A stretch of DNA of 64,000 nt from assembly GCF_004801285.1 (NCBI RefSeq), contig NZ_SSNY01000002.1:310001-374000 (forward strand). Direction: 5' to 3'. How positions within the stretch are numbered: position 1 is the stretch's first letter; each line of letters opens with the position of its first letter. Below the pieces are notes generated by a model. The model made no database searches. It was given only the letters and a program-made list of their open reading frames with translations, and was not told the DNA's origin. The position numbers were made by a program, and so were the translations under genes. This DNA comes from Ollibium composti (GTDB taxonomy: Bacteria > Pseudomonadota > Alphaproteobacteria > Rhizobiales > Rhizobiaceae). This document shows, piece after piece, positions 24,473-55,009 of this stretch.

Positions 24473-24499
24473 AAGCCGCCGTTTTCGGCGGCTTTTTTG
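24473..24499 (+). terminator. Intrinsic terminator of the F0 operon
   Basis: AAGCCGCC-GTTTTC-GGCGGCTT followed by TTTTG: an 8-bp stem with a T-run, 25 nt after the atpF stop. Confidence 0.92.
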
Positions 24500-24502
24500 T
24501 TC

Positions 24503-24647
24503 GTGCGTCCTTCGAGGCTCGCTCCGCTCGCACCTCAGGATGAGGACCGCCGTAATCCGATCATGTGCTGAATAGCGGGGAAAAGATCCCCCCATTACAA
24601 CGGTCCTCATCCTGAGGTGCGAGCGGAGCGAGCCTCGAAGGACGCAC
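24503..24647. repeat. Paired inverted copies of a 47-bp rhizobial repeat
   Basis: The left arm (24503-24549, starting GTGCGTCCTTCGAGGCTCGC) and the right arm (24601-24647) are exact reverse complements over 47 bp, separated by 51 bp. Each arm also contains the inner palindrome GAGGCTCGCTCCGCTCGCACCTC. A close relative occurs at 49773-49906. It fills the gap between the convergent atpF and rnhB genes. Confidence 0.9.
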
Positions 24648-24659
24648 AAACAGGCAGGT

Positions 24660-30072: not shown

Positions 30073-30254
30073 GCCGGCGCTGCCCCTCACCTGCCTGCCG
30101 GCATCCTCTCCCCGTGAACGGGGAGAGGGGGCGCTGTCATCGCAGCTTTCGCCAAGCCTCAACGGCGGAATTTGGGCGGCAAGGTTGCGGCAATCCTTCC
30201 TCTCCCCGTTCACGGGGAGAGGATGCCGGCAGGCAGGTGAGGGGCGGCGCCGGC
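30073..30254. repeat. 56-bp inverted repeat element between aglE and aglF
   Basis: Left arm 30073-30128 and right arm 30199-30254 are reverse complements over 56 bp with one mismatch, around a 70-bp core. Each arm ends in an inner palindrome, CCTCTCCCCG-TGAA-CGGGGAGAGG. The transcript would form a very stable hairpin after aglE. This CTCTCCCC-type palindrome is abundant in rhizobial genomes. Confidence 0.9.
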
Positions 30255-37956: not shown

Positions 37957-38021
37957 TGCGCCGCTCCAGTCTAGGCTCGGCTTACATTCGCTTGTCTTGA
38001 TGCGCGGCGCAATGGAGAAGA

Positions 38022-38077
38022 GGGCAGTAGGGCAGTAGGGCAGTAGGGCAGTAGGGCAGTAGGGCAGTAGGGCAGTA
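38022..38077 (+). repeat. Tandem repeat, seven copies of GGGCAGTA
   Basis: Seven exact 8-bp units run from 38022 to 38077. Inverted copies (TACTGCCC, TACTGCCT) follow at 38100-38115 and end at the stop codon of the L,D-transpeptidase gene, so the mRNA could fold the array against them. The array lies between that stop and the PFK start on the minus strand. Confidence 0.93.
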
Positions 38078-38114
38078 GGTGCCCCTTTTCCTATTGCCTT
38101 ACTGCCCTACTGCC

Positions 38115-38840
38115 TTAGATAACTACCACAGGATTGCGCTTCGAGACGCGGCTGTAGAGGTCGATGATGTCCTGGTTGATGAGCCTGACGCAGCCCGACG
38201 ACATCGCCTTGCCGATCGACCACCATTCGGGCGAGCCGTGGATGCGGTAGCCGGTGTCGCGGCCGTCCTGGAAGATGTAGAGGGCGCGTGCGCCGAGCGG
38301 GTTCGTCAGGCCGCCGGGCTGGCCGTTCTGCCATTTCACCAGTTCGGGCTTGCGCTGGATCATCTCGGGCGGCGGCGTCCAGGTCGGCCATTCGCGGCCG
38401 TACTGGATATTGGCGCGGCCGGACCAGCGGAAGCCGTCCTTTCCGACGCCGACGCCGTAGCGGATGGCGTCGCCGCCTTGCTGCACCAGGTAGAGCAGGC
38501 GTTCCTGCGTATGCACCACGATGGTGCCCGGTGCCTCGCCGGTCGGGTCGACGACGATCTGCCGGCGGAATTCGGCCTTGACCTTCTGGTAGGGCACGGC
38601 CGGCACGGCGAAGCCGCCGTCGGTCAGCGCGGCGTACATCACGTCGGGGCTGGTCACATGGCTGTCGACGCTGATGCGCGGCACCGGCCGGTTCGGCTTG
38701 ATCGAGCCGGTGGTGATGGTGTCGAGACCGAGCGCCGGCATGTCCACCGAGCGCGAGCAGCCGGCGATGCCGAGAAGGGCCGCCGCACCCAGGCCGCCGA
38801 GCGTGGCGCGCCGGGAAAGGTTGGTCCCGGTTTCGTTCAT
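38115..38840 (-). CDS. L,D-transpeptidase (YkuD domain) lipoprotein
   Basis: The 241-residue protein begins with a twin-arginine-like lipoprotein leader (SRRATLGGLGAAALLGIAGC, lipidated Cys28) and ends with a YkuD catalytic domain (about residues 110-240) holding the RIHGSPEWWSIGKAMSSGCVRLIN motif with the active-site His and Cys. Such enzymes form 3-3 peptidoglycan cross-links or attach proteins to peptidoglycan, in the periplasm. The frame is open to 38957; ATG codons at 38885 and 38840 are possible, and 38840 gives the standard leader. Confidence 0.9.
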   Translation of the reverse strand: MNETGTNLSRRATLGGLGAAALLGIAGCSRSVDMPALGLDTITTGSIKPNRPVPRISVDSHVTSPDVMYAALTDGGFAVPAVPYQKVKAEFRRQIVVDPTGEAPGTIVVHTQERLLYLVQQGGDAIRYGVGVGKDGFRWSGRANIQYGREWPTWTPPPEMIQRKPELVKWQNGQPGGLTNPLGARALYIFQDGRDTGYRIHGSPEWWSIGKAMSSGCVRLINQDIIDLYSRVSKRNPVVVI

Positions 38841-49758: not shown

Positions 49759-49772
49759 CGTCATGAAATCCG

Positions 49773-49906
49773 TCGTGCGTCCTTCGAGGCTCGCTTCGCT
49801 CGCACCTCAGGATGAGGACCGCAGGGCGCCAAACCCGGCACGAAGCGTTTGCGCTGACCTCCCTCATCCTGAGGTGCGAGCGAAGCGAGCCTCGAAGGAT
49901 GCACGA
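49773..49906. repeat. Paired inverted rhizobial repeat inside the carnitine operon
   Basis: Arms at 49773-49817 and 49862-49906 are reverse complements over 45 bp with one mismatch, 44 bp apart. They share the TCCTTCGAGGCTCGC ... GCACCTCAGGATGAGG sequence of the element at 24503-24647, with TTC in place of TCC in the middle. The right arm ends 20 nt before the acyl-CoA dehydrogenase ATG. Confidence 0.9.
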
Positions 49907-49926
49907 CCAATGTTACAGGTGAAGCC

Positions 49927-51099: not shown

Positions 51100-51834
51100 A
51101 TGGCGAAGACCGGCATCAAGGAAACCGACCTTTACCTGCCCGTGAAGCGTCTGCTCGAAACGCAGGGCTATACGGTCAAGGGCGAGGTCAGCGCAGCCGA
51201 CGTCGTCGCCATGCGCGAAGGCGACGAACCCGTGATCGTCGAATTGAAGGCCGGTTTCTCGCTGTCGCTGTTCCATCAGGCGATCCAGCGCCAGGCGATC
51301 AGCGACGCGGTCTATGTCGCCGTGCCGCGCGGAACGGGGCGTGCATCGTTGAAGGCGCTGGTCGAGAACAGGAAGCTGTGCCGGCGGCTCGGTCTTGGCC
51401 TGATCACGGTTCGTCTCGCCGATGGCTACACCGAAATCCATTGCGACCCCGCGCCCTACAAGCCACGGCAGTCCAGGCCGCGAAAGACGCGGCTTCTGCG
51501 GGAATTCGAACGGCTGGTCGGCGACCCGAACCTTGGCGGCGCGACGCGGCGCAATCTGGTGACCGGCTATCGCCAGGAAGCGTTGCGCTGCCTCAACCTG
51601 CTCGACGAACGCGGCCCGACGAAAGCCGCCGAGGTCGCCCGCCAGACCAGCATCGGCCACGCGCGTCGCCTGATGGCCGACAATCACTATGGCTGGTTCG
51701 AGAGGATCGGCGTCGGCATTTACGCCTTGAGCCCGCAAGGCGTGGAGGCGACCGCTCAATATCTGCCGGAACTCGAAAAACTCCGCGCGTCGACGGCCGA
51801 CGCGAGCAACCCTTCCGTGATCGCCAAACCATGA
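51100..51834 (+). CDS. DUF2161 protein, PD-(D/E)XK nuclease-like fold
   Basis: The 244-residue protein has an N-terminal half that fits a PD-(D/E)XK-type core: ETDLYLPVKRLLETQGYTVKGEV, AADVVAMREGDEPVIVELKAGFS (E and K of the DxE-x-K motif), FHQAIQRQAISDAVYVAVP. The C-terminal part, with LNLLDERGPTKAAEVARQTSIGHARRLMADNHYGWFERI, looks like a winged helix. This is the DUF2161 (COG5482) family, whose activity is unknown. It lies 9 nt after the acyl-CoA dehydrogenase gene, and its stop overlaps the next ATG (ATGA), so it is embedded in the catabolic operon. Confidence 0.85.
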   Translation: MAKTGIKETDLYLPVKRLLETQGYTVKGEVSAADVVAMREGDEPVIVELKAGFSLSLFHQAIQRQAISDAVYVAVPRGTGRASLKALVENRKLCRRLGLGLITVRLADGYTEIHCDPAPYKPRQSRPRKTRLLREFERLVGDPNLGGATRRNLVTGYRQEALRCLNLLDERGPTKAAEVARQTSIGHARRLMADNHYGWFERIGVGIYALSPQGVEATAQYLPELEKLRASTADASNPSVIAKP

Positions 51835-54230
51835 CGCCTGTCCGCGACCTTTCCCGTCTCCTGCGCCCCAAGTCCGTTGCCATCATTGGCGGCGGCGCCT
51901 TCGGCACCAACGTCGTCGAGCAGTGCCTGAAGATGAATTATGCCGGCGCGATCTGGCCGGTGCATCCCAGCCGCGCCGAGGTGCACGGCGTGCCGGCCTT
52001 CAAGTCGGTCGCCGATCTGCCGGGCGCGCCCGACGCCGCCTTCGTCGCCGTCAACCGCAATCTCACCATCGACATCATCCGCCAGCTTTCCGCCATGGGG
52101 GCGGGCGGAGCCATCTGCTTTGCCGCGGGTTTTCGCGAGACGGGCAGCTACGATGCCGACGGCGAGCGCCTGCAGGCGGACCTGATCGATGCTGCCGGTT
52201 CCATGCCGATCATCGGCCCGAACTGCTACGGCCTGATCAACTACGCCGACGGCGCGCTTCTGTGGCCCGACCAGCATGGCGGCCGCCGGCTCGGCGCGGG
52301 CGAGCGCGGCGTCGGCATCATCACCCAGTCCTCCAACATCGCCTGCAACCTCACCATGCAGACGCGCGGCCTGCCCGTCGCCTTCCTGATGACGGCGGGC
52401 AACCAGGCGCAGACGGGCCTGTCGGAAATGGCGCTGGGGCTCATCGAGGACGACCGCGTCACCGCGCTCGGCCTGCACATCGAGGGGTTCGATTCAGTCG
52501 CCGGCTTCGAACGGCTGGCGGCGCGGGCGCGCGAATTGAACAAGCCCATCGTCGCCATGAAGGTCGGCCGCTCCGAGCAGGCGCGTGCCGCCACCATCTC
52601 GCACACCGCCTCGCTGGCCGGCTCCGATGCCGCCTCCGACGCCTTCCTGCGCCGGCTCGGCATTCCGCGTCTGGATACCATCCCGTCCTTTCTCGAGGCC
52701 CTGAAGCTGCTGCATGCGGTCGGGTCGCTGGAATCGCGCACACTGTCGTCCATGAGTTGTTCCGGCGGCGAGGCCTCGGTGATGGCGGACACCGCCGTCG
52801 GGCGCGGCGTGCATTTCCCGCCACTGGAGGCGGCGCACAAGGCGCGCGTGCAGGACACGCTCGGGCCGCTGGTGGCCGTCGCCAATCCGCTCGACTACAA
52901 CACCTATATCTGGGCCAAGGAGGAGGCGCTGACGGCGACCTTCTGCGCCATGGCCTCGGGCGGCTTCGGCCTCAACCTTCTGGTGCTGGATTTCCCGCGT
53001 ACCGACCGCTGCTCCGACGCCGACTGGTGGATTACGGTCAATGCGTTCGAGAAAGCGCTGAAGGAAAACGGCGCCAAGGGCGCCATCGTCGCGTCAATGG
53101 GCGAGAACCTGCCGGAAGGCCATTCGGCCGAGCTGCTGCGGCGCGGCATCGTGCCGATCCACGGCATCGCCGAGGCTTTCGACGCGGCCGAAGCGGCGGC
53201 ATTTGTGGGCGAGGCGTGGCGGCGTCCGGTATTGACCTCGACGGTGGCAGGTCGACCCCCACACCGTCAGGCTACGCCTGACACCTCTCCCCCGCTCGAC
53301 GGGGGAGAGAAAGGGGGCGGCGGTGATGGAGGCGCTTCCTCTCCCCCGTCGAGCGGGGGAGAGGTGTCGCGGGCGAAGCCCGGGACGGAGTGTGGGGCGA
53401 GCTCTCCCGACGAGGCATCCGCCAAATCCATGCTTGTCGCCGCCGGCCTGCCGGTCCCGCCTGGTCTGCGTGCGGGCAGCGTGCGGGAAGCCGTCTCTGC
53501 GGCCGAACAACTCGGCTTTCCTGTCGCGCTGAAAGCGCTGGGCGTCGCCCACAAGTCGGAAGCCGGCGCGGTGCGGCTCAATCTCGAATCCGCTGACGAT
53601 GTGCGCGCGGCCGCCGAGGCGCTTCTGCCGCTCGGCGCCGGCCTCTATGTCGAGCGCATGGTACAGGGCGGGGTGGCCGAACTCATCGTCGGCTTCACCC
53701 GCGACGCCGTGTTCGGCCCGGTGATGACGCTGGGCTCGGGCGGCGTGCTGGTCGAACTGCTGAAGGACAGCGCCACGCTGCTGCTGCCGGCTTCGCGTAC
53801 GGAGATCGAGACGGCGCTGCGCGGCCTGAAACTGTTCCCGTTGCTCTACGGCTATCGCGGCCGCGCCAGGGCCGATCTGGCGGCGGCGGTCGACGCCATC
53901 GCCGGCATCGCTGATTTCGTCGTCGCCCATGGCGATGCGATCGAAGAACTGGACGTCAACCCGCTGATCGTTTGCAAGCAGGGCGAGGGCGCCTGGATCG
54001 CCGATGCGCTGCTCGTTCTTTCCTCCCCCCTTGAGGGGGAGGTGGCCGCCCCCGGGTCTGGCCTTTGGCCACGAGGACAGGCTGCACGGCCGGAGGGGGT
54101 CGGCGCCGACAGCGCGCCGACTTCCGAAAATGGATCGGCCCCTCATTTGGCCGCGACAACCCCACCCGACCGGACTTCGTCCGGCCACCCTCCCCTCGAG
54201 GGGGAGGGGAACGCAGGAGCTTTGCCATGA
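51831..54230 (+). CDS. ADP-forming acyl-CoA synthetase family protein with two repeat-derived insertions
   Basis: The 799-residue protein has a CoA-binding domain (about 1-130: RPKSVAIIGGGAFGTNVVEQCL), a succinyl-CoA-ligase-like part (about 150-465, active-site His expected in ARAATISHTASLAGSD) and an ATP-grasp domain (about 530-725: GFPVALKALGVAHKSEAGAVRLNL, then ELDVNPLIV). It would activate gamma-butyrobetaine or carnitine with CoA. Residues about 475-523 come from a palindromic repeat inserted in frame in the interdomain linker, and the last about 65 residues read through another repeat. It is about 100 residues longer than usual for the family. ATG at 51831 is coupled to the DUF2161 stop. 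Confidence 0.87.
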   Translation: MTPVRDLSRLLRPKSVAIIGGGAFGTNVVEQCLKMNYAGAIWPVHPSRAEVHGVPAFKSVADLPGAPDAAFVAVNRNLTIDIIRQLSAMGAGGAICFAAGFRETGSYDADGERLQADLIDAAGSMPIIGPNCYGLINYADGALLWPDQHGGRRLGAGERGVGIITQSSNIACNLTMQTRGLPVAFLMTAGNQAQTGLSEMALGLIEDDRVTALGLHIEGFDSVAGFERLAARARELNKPIVAMKVGRSEQARAATISHTASLAGSDAASDAFLRRLGIPRLDTIPSFLEALKLLHAVGSLESRTLSSMSCSGGEASVMADTAVGRGVHFPPLEAAHKARVQDTLGPLVAVANPLDYNTYIWAKEEALTATFCAMASGGFGLNLLVLDFPRTDRCSDADWWITVNAFEKALKENGAKGAIVASMGENLPEGHSAELLRRGIVPIHGIAEAFDAAEAAAFVGEAWRRPVLTSTVAGRPPHRQATPDTSPPLDGGEKGGGGDGGASSPPSSGGEVSRAKPGTECGASSPDEASAKSMLVAAGLPVPPGLRAGSVREAVSAAEQLGFPVALKALGVAHKSEAGAVRLNLESADDVRAAAEALLPLGAGLYVERMVQGGVAELIVGFTRDAVFGPVMTLGSGGVLVELLKDSATLLLPASRTEIETALRGLKLFPLLYGYRGRARADLAAAVDAIAGIADFVVAHGDAIEELDVNPLIVCKQGEGAWIADALLVLSSPLEGEVAAPGSGLWPRGQAARPEGVGADSAPTSENGSAPHLAATTPPDRTSSGHPPLEGEGNAGALP
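53256..53399. repeat. Palindromic repeat inserted in frame within the acyl-CoA synthetase gene
   Basis: Perfect 28-bp inverted arms, CACCTCTCCCCCGCTCGACG... at 53282-53309 and its complement at 53339-53366, are nested in a less perfect outer pair beginning CCCCACAC and ending GTGTGGGG. The whole element is about 144 bp (48 codons) and encodes a Gly/Pro/Ser-rich linker (PPLDGGEKGGGGDGG). Confidence 0.9.
54021..54210. repeat. Repeat element forming the 3' end of the acyl-CoA synthetase gene
   Basis: Arms CCTCCCCCCTTGAGGGGGAGG (near 54022-54042) and its relative CCCTCCCCTCGAGGGGGAGG (54188-54207) enclose about 145 bp. The element supplies the last about 65 codons of the synthetase and ends 17 nt before the caiD-like ATG, just ahead of its AGGAG ribosome site. 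Confidence 0.8.
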
Positions 54231-55009
54231 CCGACGTCATCACCACGCGCCGCGACGGCGCGATCCTCGAAGTCACGCTCGACCGGCCGAAGGCCAACGC
54301 CATCAACATGGAGACGTCGCGGCTGATGGGCCAGACGTTCAAGGCGTTCCGCGACGATCCGGAACTCCGCGTCGCCATCGTCAGGACGGCGGGCGACAAG
54401 TTCTTCTGCGCCGGCTGGGACCTGAAGGGCGCGGCCAGCGGCGACGCGGTGGACGGCGACTACGGCGTCGGCGGCTTCGCCGGCCTGCAGGAACTGCGCG
54501 ACCTCAACAAGCCGGTCATCGCCTGCGTCAACGGCATGGCCGTCGGCGGCGGCTTCGAACTGGCGCTGTCCTGCGACCTGATCTACGCCTCCGACCACTC
54601 CTCCTTCGCGCTGCCCGAGATCAAGGCCGGCACGCTGGCCGATGCCGCGACCATCAAGCTGCCGAAGCGCATCCCCTACCACGTCGCCATGGACCTGCTC
54701 TTGACCGGCCGCTGGATGGATGCCGCCGAGGCGCATCGCTGGGGCCTCGTCAACGAGGTGCTACCGAAGGAAAAGCTGGAGGACCGGGTGTGGGAGATCG
54801 CTCGCCTGCTCGCAGGCGGCCCGCCGCTGGTCTTCGCCGCCATCAAGGAGACGGCGCGTGAGGCCGAGGGACAAAAGTTCCAGGACATCATGAACCGCGT
54901 CACCCGCAGGCAACTCGCCACCGTCGATGTGCTCTACGGCTCGGAAGACAATCTCGAAGGTTTCAAGGCTTTCGCCGAGAAGCGCGACCCGGTGTGGAAG
55001 GGACGGTAA
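54227..55009 (+). CDS. Enoyl-CoA hydratase, CaiD-like carnitinyl-CoA dehydratase
   Basis: The 260-residue crotonase-family protein interconverts crotonobetainyl-CoA and L-carnitinyl-CoA. It has FFCAGWDLKGAA (oxyanion-hole region), VNGMAVGGGFELALSCDLIYA, FALPEIKAGTLADAATIKLPKR, and a C-terminus AFAEKRDPVWKGR that is, from memory, identical to E. coli CaiD. The ATG at 54227 overlaps the synthetase stop (ATGA), with AGGAG upstream. It is last in the operon; the next gene is convergent. Confidence 0.9.
   Translation: MTDVITTRRDGAILEVTLDRPKANAINMETSRLMGQTFKAFRDDPELRVAIVRTAGDKFFCAGWDLKGAASGDAVDGDYGVGGFAGLQELRDLNKPVIACVNGMAVGGGFELALSCDLIYASDHSSFALPEIKAGTLADAATIKLPKRIPYHVAMDLLLTGRWMDAAEAHRWGLVNEVLPKEKLEDRVWEIARLLAGGPPLVFAAIKETAREAEGQKFQDIMNRVTRRQLATVDVLYGSEDNLEGFKAFAEKRDPVWKGR

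Follow-up and report, generated by a model that had tools for sequence, protein, structure and literature searches.

The stretch of DNA analysed here (the window; 64,000 nucleotides, contig C2 positions 310001-374000) comes from a Mesorhizobium-like bacterium and carries the gene for an ADP(NDP)-forming acyl-CoA synthetase, with its ATG at 51831 and its stop at 54228-54230. The encoded protein shows the domain order that marks an ADP-forming acyl-CoA synthetase, namely CoA-binding and Succ_CoA_lig domains, a linker, an ATP-grasp_5 domain and then a C-terminal tail, and in the Pfam annotation CoA_binding_2 and Succ_CoA_lig together span residues 13-293, while ATP-grasp_5 covers residues 524-728. 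The AlphaFold model of the synthetase resembles DddX (7cm9) across most of its length, and chains A and B of 4xyl, a related archaeal enzyme made up of these two chains, each match the model separately. Moreover, the gene overlaps both of its neighbours as ATGA, upstream with the stop of the preceding ORF and downstream with the start of an enoyl-CoA hydratase gene. The features considered below are these:

51831-54230, + strand: ADP(NDP)-forming acyl-CoA synthetase gene (from ORF, Pfam and structure comparison)
53232-53399, + strand: interdomain linker between fixed anchor residues, 56 codons, predicted to be disordered
53253-53403, + strand: family-A palindromic element (from a model of 16 copies, fold and alignment)
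53280-53313, + strand: left inner arm, itself a hairpin, CTCTCCCCCGCTCGACGGGGGAGAG (inverted-repeat search)
53335-53368, + strand: right inner arm, itself a hairpin (inverted-repeat search)
54019-54212, + strand: second, different palindromic repeat, resembling the C types by eye
54227-55009, + strand: enoyl-CoA hydratase gene, its ATG overlapping the TGA that ends the palindrome-encoded tail

For the hydratase, the start at 54227 (MTDVITTR) rests on the sequence itself and on a relative whose gene begins alike, the ORF list giving a longer frame from 54065.

The family-A palindrome and its dispersal

An initial annotation of this DNA had described a nested palindrome at 53256-53399, in frame and stop-free between the ligase and ATP-grasp halves of the synthetase. 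This palindrome is real. In fact, the segment folds as one nested structure with an RNA MFE of -118.7 kcal/mol against a shuffle mean of -70.4 (z -10.8), none of 200 shuffles folded as low, and its two inner arms, of 34 nt each, are 97% complementary; the hairpin motif was absent from 100 shuffled windows. While the place stands as described, the 16-copy model extends the element by a few bases, to 53253-53403. Its outer arms carry CCGTC and GACGG, either side bears one small hairpin, and the inner arms (CTCTCCCC) enclose a central spacer. The synthetase frame does run open through the palindrome, and the position between the two halves agrees with the Pfam domain limits. In the AlphaFold model, the linker peptide (residues 468-523, with numbering that starts after Met) has pLDDT values below 50, at about 26-31, and is predicted to be disordered; by predicted disorder alone, the encoded segment lies at an exposed and tolerant place of the RPE-like kind. 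Over 52800-54400, no Rfam match reached the gathering score, and the 22 sub-threshold matches were all to microRNA families (best E 1.4e-7), which we attribute to the long hairpin and not to kinship.

A second palindrome at about 54019-54212, overlooked in the initial annotation, forms the C-terminal tail of the synthetase up to the start of the next gene, and here residues 734-798 also have pLDDT values below 50. The gene of a sister species (L068) shares this C-terminal palindrome. Among the 139 distinct orthologues described below, 106 have tails of fewer than 15 residues, and a crude peptide-signature count found palindrome-like tails in 14 of the 33 with tails of at least 15 residues; we place no weight on this count, since L098 at least was probably a false hit and L158 and L169 were probably missed.

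Family A is dispersed through the genome, with 63 BLAST matches on both strands. Among the matches listed or found by BLAST, we distinguished 48 places, some of them weak or half-elements, and judged from the coding potential of the flanks that 2 lie in frame within a gene. Family A is thus mostly non-coding, yet coding in the synthetase linker, which bears out the earlier view of an intergenic-type repeat turned into protein sequence. With a model of 150 positions, it is a dispersed palindrome in the 100-150-bp range of RPE-like repeats, and it has the terminal inverted repeats of a MITE. Furthermore, C-G-T-C and G-A-C-G are invariant in the 16 aligned copies, giving family A the CGTC tag. 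Set by eye against the stem rule of CGTC REPs (8-9 bp starting with AT pairs, a loop of 4-5 and a CCA tail), the family-A stems are shorter and GC-rich, and are followed by CAC or CCA. Open frames are in mild excess (mean 4.0 of 6 versus 3.0 in shuffles), and the model-defined lengths of 37 copies of 130-165 bp leave remainders of 0, 1 and 2 on division by three in 16, 11 and 10 cases.

RAYT-type mobilisation was considered and rejected, as this genome has no Y1_Tnp (PF01797) match at E <= 0.001; the same search found Y1_Tnp in 5 of 14 control genomes. Neither a target duplication nor an exact empty site emerged from the orthologue comparison, the linkers diverging too much for such a site to be defined. 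Given these three negative results, we infer mobility from dispersion alone. Family A is probably non-autonomous.

The interdomain joint in orthologues

To the window we added 157 loci, and together these comprise 139 distinct sequences. Congeners contributed 51 loci (142 of 146 genomes matched), and a search of the taxonomic family contributed the best 80 by rank (141 of 297 genomes matched), setting aside G000, four listed Mesorhizobium and G235; 27 named loci were included, from which L094 (30% identity) was removed. Several of the bacteria concerned are named isolates and not metagenome bins. The linker of L105 contains an N.

Linkers shorter than 90 nt were found in 99 of the distinct orthologues and linkers of 96-225 nt in the other 40. 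The short ones have a clear mode, with 72 of the 139 orthologues at 42-48 nt (14-16 codons), and the six most distant rows (L215-L220) have linkers of 42-45 nt. By BLAST, the 40 long linkers fall into 11-13 sequence clusters. Perfect inverted repeats of at least 12 nt occur in 23 of these versus 1 of 320 windows of the same length from the halves of the same genes; 17 of the 40 lack such a repeat at 12 nt and 13 at 9 nt, a length at which 20 of the 320 control windows also have one. Lengths are multiples of three in 39 of the 40, and none of the 40 has a stop in the upstream frame. The sole out-of-frame case is L189, whose halves lie in different frames and which may be a broken or split gene.

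More conspicuously, the sister gene L068 is 90% identical to that of the window, yet holds an unrelated palindrome (type B) of 105 nt where the window has a 168-nt linker of type A. According to the initial annotation, an unrelated orthologous linker of the same length would have spoken against its reading, and L068 comes close to this in the letter. Since the L068 linker is itself another palindrome, the idea of recruitment is strengthened and not refuted. The initial annotation had also proposed alignment with orthologues that lack the element, and 28 of the 29 congeners aligned first have no comparable insertion, L032 among them having a 66-nt linker with a small hairpin; the remaining one, L031, contains a different palindrome that is partly decayed. 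The single event described earlier is therefore real but one among many, the other palindromes at the same site in relatives having escaped notice.

On a gene tree of 103 of the 139 rows (41 plain-linker core Mesorhizobium rows cut to 6; L214 dropped), we counted at least 22 changes between long and short linkers and 33-34 changes of cluster, while labelling by hand gave 20 and 35, respectively. These counts take gain with loss and insertion with exchange, and the tree itself is a quick one, with 22 of 100 inner branches below 80% support. Captures are seen among short-linker neighbours (L159, L160 and L171), and a palindrome type is common by descent in L153/L177, L081/L165/L169 and L031/L090. 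The same joint of this enzyme is filled repeatedly by different palindromes in relatives and is a recurrent capture site, and palindromic repeats seem to supply protein linkers again and again.

Of 14 pairs run for dN/dS (two without a ligase-half value), the 8 with long linkers gave 0.044-0.095 in the ligase half and 0.106-0.269 in the ATP-grasp half. Plain linkers gave 0.023-0.081 (two pairs) and 0.024 (a third pair, ATP-grasp half only). Both halves of the palindrome-bearing synthetases are under purifying selection, although the higher ratios than in plain-linker pairs make some relaxation possible. That the protein probably stays active, as first suggested, appears likely from ratios well below 1 in both halves.

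Similar palindromes lie in other genes. The two parts of aconitase X (43 of 48 genomes matched; 30 loci used, of which L227 is the large part only) are fused in 2 of 30 genomes having both parts, each time with a different palindrome, namely A in this genome and a B/F-like one in the sister L221, the two having in common the left edge GGCAG-xTACCCCCAC. For 2-oxoacid dehydrogenase E2, about 102 matches were listed across 30 genomes, and 27 of 30 loci could be used (no recognised motif in L307 and L332, a short frame in L333); the linker matches these palindromes in 8 of the 27 genes versus 0 of 81 downstream segments of the same genes. Genomes were chosen for a long synthetase linker in all of the E2 and most of the aconitase X sample, and these counts give no base rate. 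Types C2 and E were followed in five relatives at 41 of 55 loci, omitting 6 opposite-strand duplicates and 8 half-matches in G417. Of these 41 palindrome places, 13 are in frame within genes, 8 of the 13 outside the synthetase gene. Seven further gene kinds have in-frame palindromes in relatives, among them GlyS, UvrD, PolA and FtsY; the L292/L294 copy in the beta subunit of glycyl-tRNA synthetase is in frame inside one Pfam domain.

Origin and upkeep of the linker palindromes

Very probably, a dispersed and presumably non-autonomous palindrome landed in frame in the flexible interdomain joint of the synthetase and was tolerated there. Insertions into genes would survive only where extra disordered peptide is tolerated, such as interdomain joints, termini, some surface loops and gene junctions, and palindromes would consequently accumulate and turn over in these places. 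The synthetase joint appears to lie at the point that separates two subunits in related enzymes. Palindromic elements suit such places because they are GC-rich and often stop-free, and insertion at a junction can also fuse neighbouring genes, as with aconitase X in this genome.

A less probable course is that one or a few old linker palindromes later gave way, through recombination with other palindromes of the genome or through insertion into these, the joint being a hotspot because a palindrome is already there. Sister genes that differ in palindrome at the same place at two loci (synthetase and aconitase X), and the C/G-rich ends common to several families, are consistent with such exchange. 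However, the position of L159, L160 and L171 amid short-linker neighbours means that fresh gains must also occur, and the variants of the linker copy are not shared by the remaining type-E copies that were compared, 2 of them in G220 and 6 in G427.

Tolerance alone leaves one observation unexplained, which is the slow change of the palindrome arms relative to synonymous sites. With arm and spacer borders set by eye, and gapped pairs (e.g., L031/L090, L092/L152 and L142/L146) left out, the changes in arms and spacer were 0/93 and 9/51 bases in L153/L177, 2/94 and 7/35 in L081/L169, 5/94 and 7/35 in L081/L165, and 1/96 and 9/54 in the glycyl-tRNA synthetase pair L292/L294. For these in-gene pairs, dS is 0.046-0.062 in the element versus 0.33-0.71 in the flanking coding sequence. 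In two orthologous copies that do not lie in a shared reading frame, the arms changed at 4/96 and 12/97 bases plus gaps, and the conservation of the arms stands out less clearly there. One might suppose that selection acts on the hairpin itself, as a signal between the halves for mRNA pausing or stability, and both the strong predicted RNA structure and the greater change in the two outside copies agree with this. Even so, we regard such selection as improbable: the outside copies, just two in number, also change more slowly than synonymous sites, the glycyl-tRNA synthetase element lies inside one Pfam domain and not between two, most orthologues have no hairpin at the joint, and the left half has lost its pairing in the older capture L031/L090. 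Causes besides ribosome slowing are possible, including gene conversion or hairpin-templated repair, though for gene conversion the type-E copies compared in G220 and G427 do not carry the linker-copy variants.

A single ancient insertion, diversified beyond recognition, would agree with the confinement of all insertions to the same short stretch and with the neighbours that keep one type by descent, but is very unlikely, as the clusters have no similarity at the threshold used, the tree requires at least 33 changes, the six most distant rows have 42-45 nt linkers, and types A, B and C2 are multi-copy in their host genomes (type E has 3-12 matches only, mostly half-elements). Least likely is a frame that is open in form only, whether because the gene is in decay, was assembled wrongly or yields two separate proteins. 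L189 is out of frame, L193 and L214 change frame near the joint and the archaeal relative has two chains, but 39 of 40 long linkers from separate assemblies are in frame and stop-free, and both halves are under purifying selection.

Beyond in-frame landing and tolerance at this joint, we tentatively propose that palindromes in Rhizobiaceae/Phyllobacteriaceae may form a standing supply of linker or loop peptide and of gene fusions, as cassettes inserted or exchanged at docking joints in acyl-CoA synthetase, aconitase X, 2-oxoacid dehydrogenase E2, DNA polymerase I, FtsY and others. If so, existing palindromes or translationally coupled gene junctions would attract or preserve cassettes, and linker sequence would be rewritten from mobile DNA on species time scales.

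Comparison with known palindromic repeats

The RIME elements of rhizobia are mosaic palindromic intergenic repeats in the same bacterial group, and we liken them to the present families by description and not by sequence. In-frame palindromes as such are already known, from Rickettsia RPEs and from REPs; among the top-ranked open-licence full texts, none described palindromes being captured repeatedly in this enzyme or in linkers of rhizobia.

The enterobacterial RU-1 (ERIC), RU-2 and RU-3 are small mobile repeats whose open frames become joined to genes (PMC2759123). These are other repeats in other hosts, and recurrent capture at one joint is unmentioned in the sections of that paper drawn on here.

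Alphaproteobacterial CGTC REPs are small hairpins tagged by CGTC at one end and carrying a CCA-like tail; they are frequently arranged as inverted pairs, and no dedicated transposase is known for them (PMC3733652). Their copies in genes include those for UvrD helicase, DNA polymerase I and tRNA synthetases, hosts in which palindromes are likewise found here, and the authors suggest that insertions in flexible linkers or loops may be neutral (PMC3733652). In contrast to these REPs, with stem rules compared by eye, family A has a mosaic build of 150 bp that includes additional inner arms. Moreover, recB of two Xanthomonas species has different REPs at about the same site (PMC3733652), and against the pair as described there, 11-13 palindrome clusters at a single linker make a far larger case.

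Also close are the Rickettsia RPEs and Wolbachia elements, which are palindromes of about 100-150 bp in several families, both intergenic and in frame; RPEs in proteins occupy exposed places, and orthologues may hold different families at one site (PMC3767692, PMC10969869, PMC2229807). In-frame residence without loss of frame recurs here (2 of 48 family-A places among the matches listed, 39 of 40 long linkers and 13 of 41 C2 and E places), in a host of another order and with GC-rich families that we liken to RPEs by features and not by RPE sequence. At the RPE-4/6/7 sites, one ancestral insertion was favoured and hotspots were left open, and the choice between an old single insertion and repeated hits thus stayed open in that part of the Rickettsia work (PMC3767692). 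Compared with RPEs as so described, the plain-linker lineages and the tree suggest that a single joint has gained or exchanged palindromes repeatedly, and gene fusion at a junction is added. With many outcomes at one joint on one tree and plain-linker controls between them, the single-versus-repeated question becomes directly testable, and the sister species provide comparison states for a concrete route from repeats to added disordered linkers and to fusions of adjacent genes.

The synthetase gene and its two palindromes

The gene for the ADP-forming acyl-CoA synthetase carries two palindromes, positioned as follows.

51831-54230: ADP-forming acyl-CoA synthetase gene (domains by Pfam)
53253-53403: nested palindrome of 150 bp between the synthetase halves, with no stop in the gene's frame
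54019-54230 (with the tail end): second palindrome, unlike that of the linker, making up much of the C-terminal tail; common to the sister synthetase gene L068

By Pfam, the CoA-binding and Succ_CoA_lig domains end by residue 293 and ATP-grasp_5 spans residues 524-728 (the residue after the start Met being 1). The initial annotation had described an in-frame, stop-free nested palindrome between the ligase and ATP-grasp halves, and this is what we found: the predicted RNA fold of the element (-118.7 kcal/mol) is lower than that of 200/200 shuffles, and the synthetase frame stays open across 53253-53403. AlphaFold modeling with 23 orthologues gave two folded halves (mean pLDDT 72, with some low loops), and pLDDT fell below 50 at residues 468-523 and 734-798. 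Solved relatives are either a single chain (8wzu, 7cm9) or two chains (4xyl A and B), and the A/B chain break of 4xyl falls in the stretch matching the synthetase linker.

At the C-terminal end, 106/139 orthologues have <15 residues past the last conserved strand, and the tail in the window is one of 69 residues, derived in part from the second palindrome. Here, the palindrome extends as far as the enoyl-CoA hydratase start codon, with the ATGA overlap kept. Palindrome-like C-terminal tails were also observed in several other lineages.

Linkers of the orthologous synthetases

With fixed anchor residues as its borders, the linker was measured in the window and in 157 orthologous loci (139 distinct in all). 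The commonest length is 42-48 nt (72/139 distinct orthologues), which is also found in the six most distant rows (L215-L220), and 40/139 linkers are of 96-225 nt. Read by eye, the long linkers comprise several kinds of nested palindrome, labelled A, Ai (family-A arms in reversed order), B, C, C2, D, E, F and G, plus a decayed form, with two of the 40 fitting no label; mechanical BLAST clustering gave 11 or 13 clusters, mostly agreeing with the hand labels. Perfect inverted repeats of ≥12 nt occur in 23/40 long linkers versus 1/320 same-length windows from the halves of the same genes. The three types other than A that we searched for in host genomes, with counts covering both strands and partial matches, were B (66 matches in G311, 34 in G148 and 8 in the Ollibium composti genome), C2 (59 in G362 and 42 in G297) and E (3-12 matches, mostly half-elements).

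A quick gene tree of 103 rows, with the linker left out of the alignment and 22/100 inner branches at <80% support, requires at least 22 long/short changes and 33-34 changes of cluster (20 and 35 by hand labels), counts that cannot separate gain from loss. Well-supported sister pairs bear unlike types: window A versus L068 B, L077 C versus L163 D, and L143 G versus L144 D. Of these, L068, from a Mesorhizobium metagenome assembly, shares 90% identity with the window gene over 2301 aligned bases, and its palindrome B occupies the place of palindrome A. Because plain linkers are nested among long ones and the clusters are unrelated, the sequences favour repeated gain or exchange at the joint over one diverged insertion.

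Length is divisible by three in 39/40 long linkers, all 40 are free of stops when read in the upstream frame, and the synthetase protein appears to be kept despite its palindrome linker. In eight long-linker pairs, dN/dS was 0.044-0.095 (ligase half) and 0.106-0.269 (ATP-grasp half). Two plain-linker pairs gave lower values (0.023-0.081), and selection may therefore be mildly relaxed in the palindrome-bearing synthetases. The sole frame exception is L189 (G273 C1:4641121-4643921), where a 134-nt palindrome linker separates halves in different frames and the second frame opens within the palindrome; it is therefore possibly a dead gene or a split one, i.e., a possible gene fission. Separately, in L193 and L214 the frame changes near the interdomain joint at a place where no palindrome was recognised, which may reflect assembly errors or split genes.

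We also observed that palindrome arms within genes change slowly. In captures shared by descent, arms and spacer differ at 0/93 and 9/51 positions in L153/L177, 2/94 and 7/35 in L081/L169, 5/94 and 7/35 in L081/L165, and 1/96 and 9/54 in the glycyl-tRNA synthetase pair L292/L294; dS of these in-gene elements is 0.046-0.062 versus 0.33-0.71 in flanking coding sequence. Two orthologous pairs not lying in a shared reading frame show more change in the arms, namely L279/L280 (arms 4/96, spacer 3/60, flanks 22/400) and L295/L286 (arms 12/97 plus 6 gaps, spacer 12/50). Further type-E copies checked in two host genomes lack the variants of the linker copy. The six pairs may be explained by selection for the hairpin, by gene conversion or by hairpin-templated repair.

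Palindromes elsewhere in the genomes

In the 4.65-Mb genome of Ollibium composti, the linker palindrome (family A) gave 63 BLAST matches on both strands, and a covariance model built from 16 copies gave 96, likewise counting both strands, since the two strands of the element read almost alike. Among 48 places collected and assessed by codon-usage scores over 300 bases on each side, just two lie in a stop-free frame with the same phase on both sides, the synthetase linker and aconitase X. With the other 46/48 not in frame within a gene, the earlier view of an intergenic-type repeat turned into protein sequence holds. Among copies of 130-165 bp (n = 37), 16, 11 and 10 have length remainders of 0, 1 and 2 modulo three, with no clear bias to multiples of three. 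By eye, some copies (e.g., L016, L018 and L027) are bordered by an outer inverted repeat similar to TCGCATAxGGCG / CGCCATAxGCGA, and the full element may therefore exceed 150 bp.

Further repeats were noticed in the window. At 30073-30254 is a large palindrome (arms of 56 nt, 98% complementary), intergenic by reading, which matches the family-A model weakly. A further palindrome (GTCCTTCGAGGCTCGCT... CCTCAGGATGAGG) is present twice, at 24498-24652 and 49772-49907, the latter between two ORFs, and a tandem repeat of the octamer TAGGGCAG at 38021-38117 can pair with a nearby, oppositely oriented copy.

Palindromes in other genes were located as follows.

L004 1505-1650 (Ollibium composti C10:96953-97102): aconitase X junction, family A
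L306, L308, L313, L315, L319, L321, L324, L329: E2 linkers of 2-oxoacid dehydrogenases, lipoyl to E3-binding domain
L261, L266, L273, L283, L285, L292, L294, L300: in-frame C2/E palindromes outside the synthetase

The large and small parts of aconitase X are separate genes in 28/30 genomes with both, mostly overlapping or nearly so, and form one frame (AcnX plus swivel domain by Pfam) in Ollibium composti and the sister genome. The sister junction (L221) holds a palindrome of another family with the same left edge, and both junction palindromes match synthetase linkers by BLAST. The E2 component was picked in advance for its naturally flexible linkers; 8/27 of these match synthetase palindromes at E ≤ 1e-4, versus 0/81 segments taken from farther downstream in those genes. 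Since the genomes were chosen for a long synthetase linker (all of those for E2, most for aconitase X), these fractions should not be taken as base rates.

Types C2 and E were examined at 41 places in five relatives (G220, G297, G362, G427 and G462). At 13 of these the palindrome is in frame inside a gene, five being the synthetase linker and eight in other genes: glycyl-tRNA synthetase beta (two orthologues), UvrD helicase, an MmeI-type methyltransferase, DNA polymerase I, an FtsY-like GTPase, and hydantoinases A and B. In DNA polymerase I the palindrome separates the 5'-3' exonuclease domain from the 3'-5' one, and in the FtsY-like GTPase it precedes the first domain. Those of glycyl-tRNA synthetase, UvrD, MmeI and hydantoinase B fall inside or next to a domain match that is either interrupted at that point or runs across them, which argues that tolerated places include more than joints.

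Proposed mobility of the palindromes, and known systems

The palindromes would be mobile by some route, and those in genes would survive just at tolerant places, namely the junctions between genes and, within proteins, disordered joints, ends and some loops. A search of the Ollibium composti genome for a RAYT-type transposase gave no match. The Rickettsia palindromic elements (RPEs) are the nearest known case (PMC3767692; PMC10969869; PMC2229807). There, unlike RPE groups sharing a site were interpreted as a single diverged insertion, with hotspots not excluded (PMC3767692), whereas repeated gain or exchange is favoured at the synthetase joint. In a survey of REPs, among them the CGTC-tagged repeats of alphaproteobacteria, linker tolerance was proposed, and one case was given, recB of two species, with different REPs at about the same site (PMC3733652). 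Moreover, REP-bearing genes named there include UvrD, DNA polymerase I and tRNA synthetases (PMC3733652), kinds of gene that also recur among those with palindromes in the relatives examined here. Given these RPE and REP precedents, palindromes within genes are a phenomenon already known in kind; what seems new, as far as our searches of open-licence papers go, is a joint rewritten this often, together with gene fusion by a like element.
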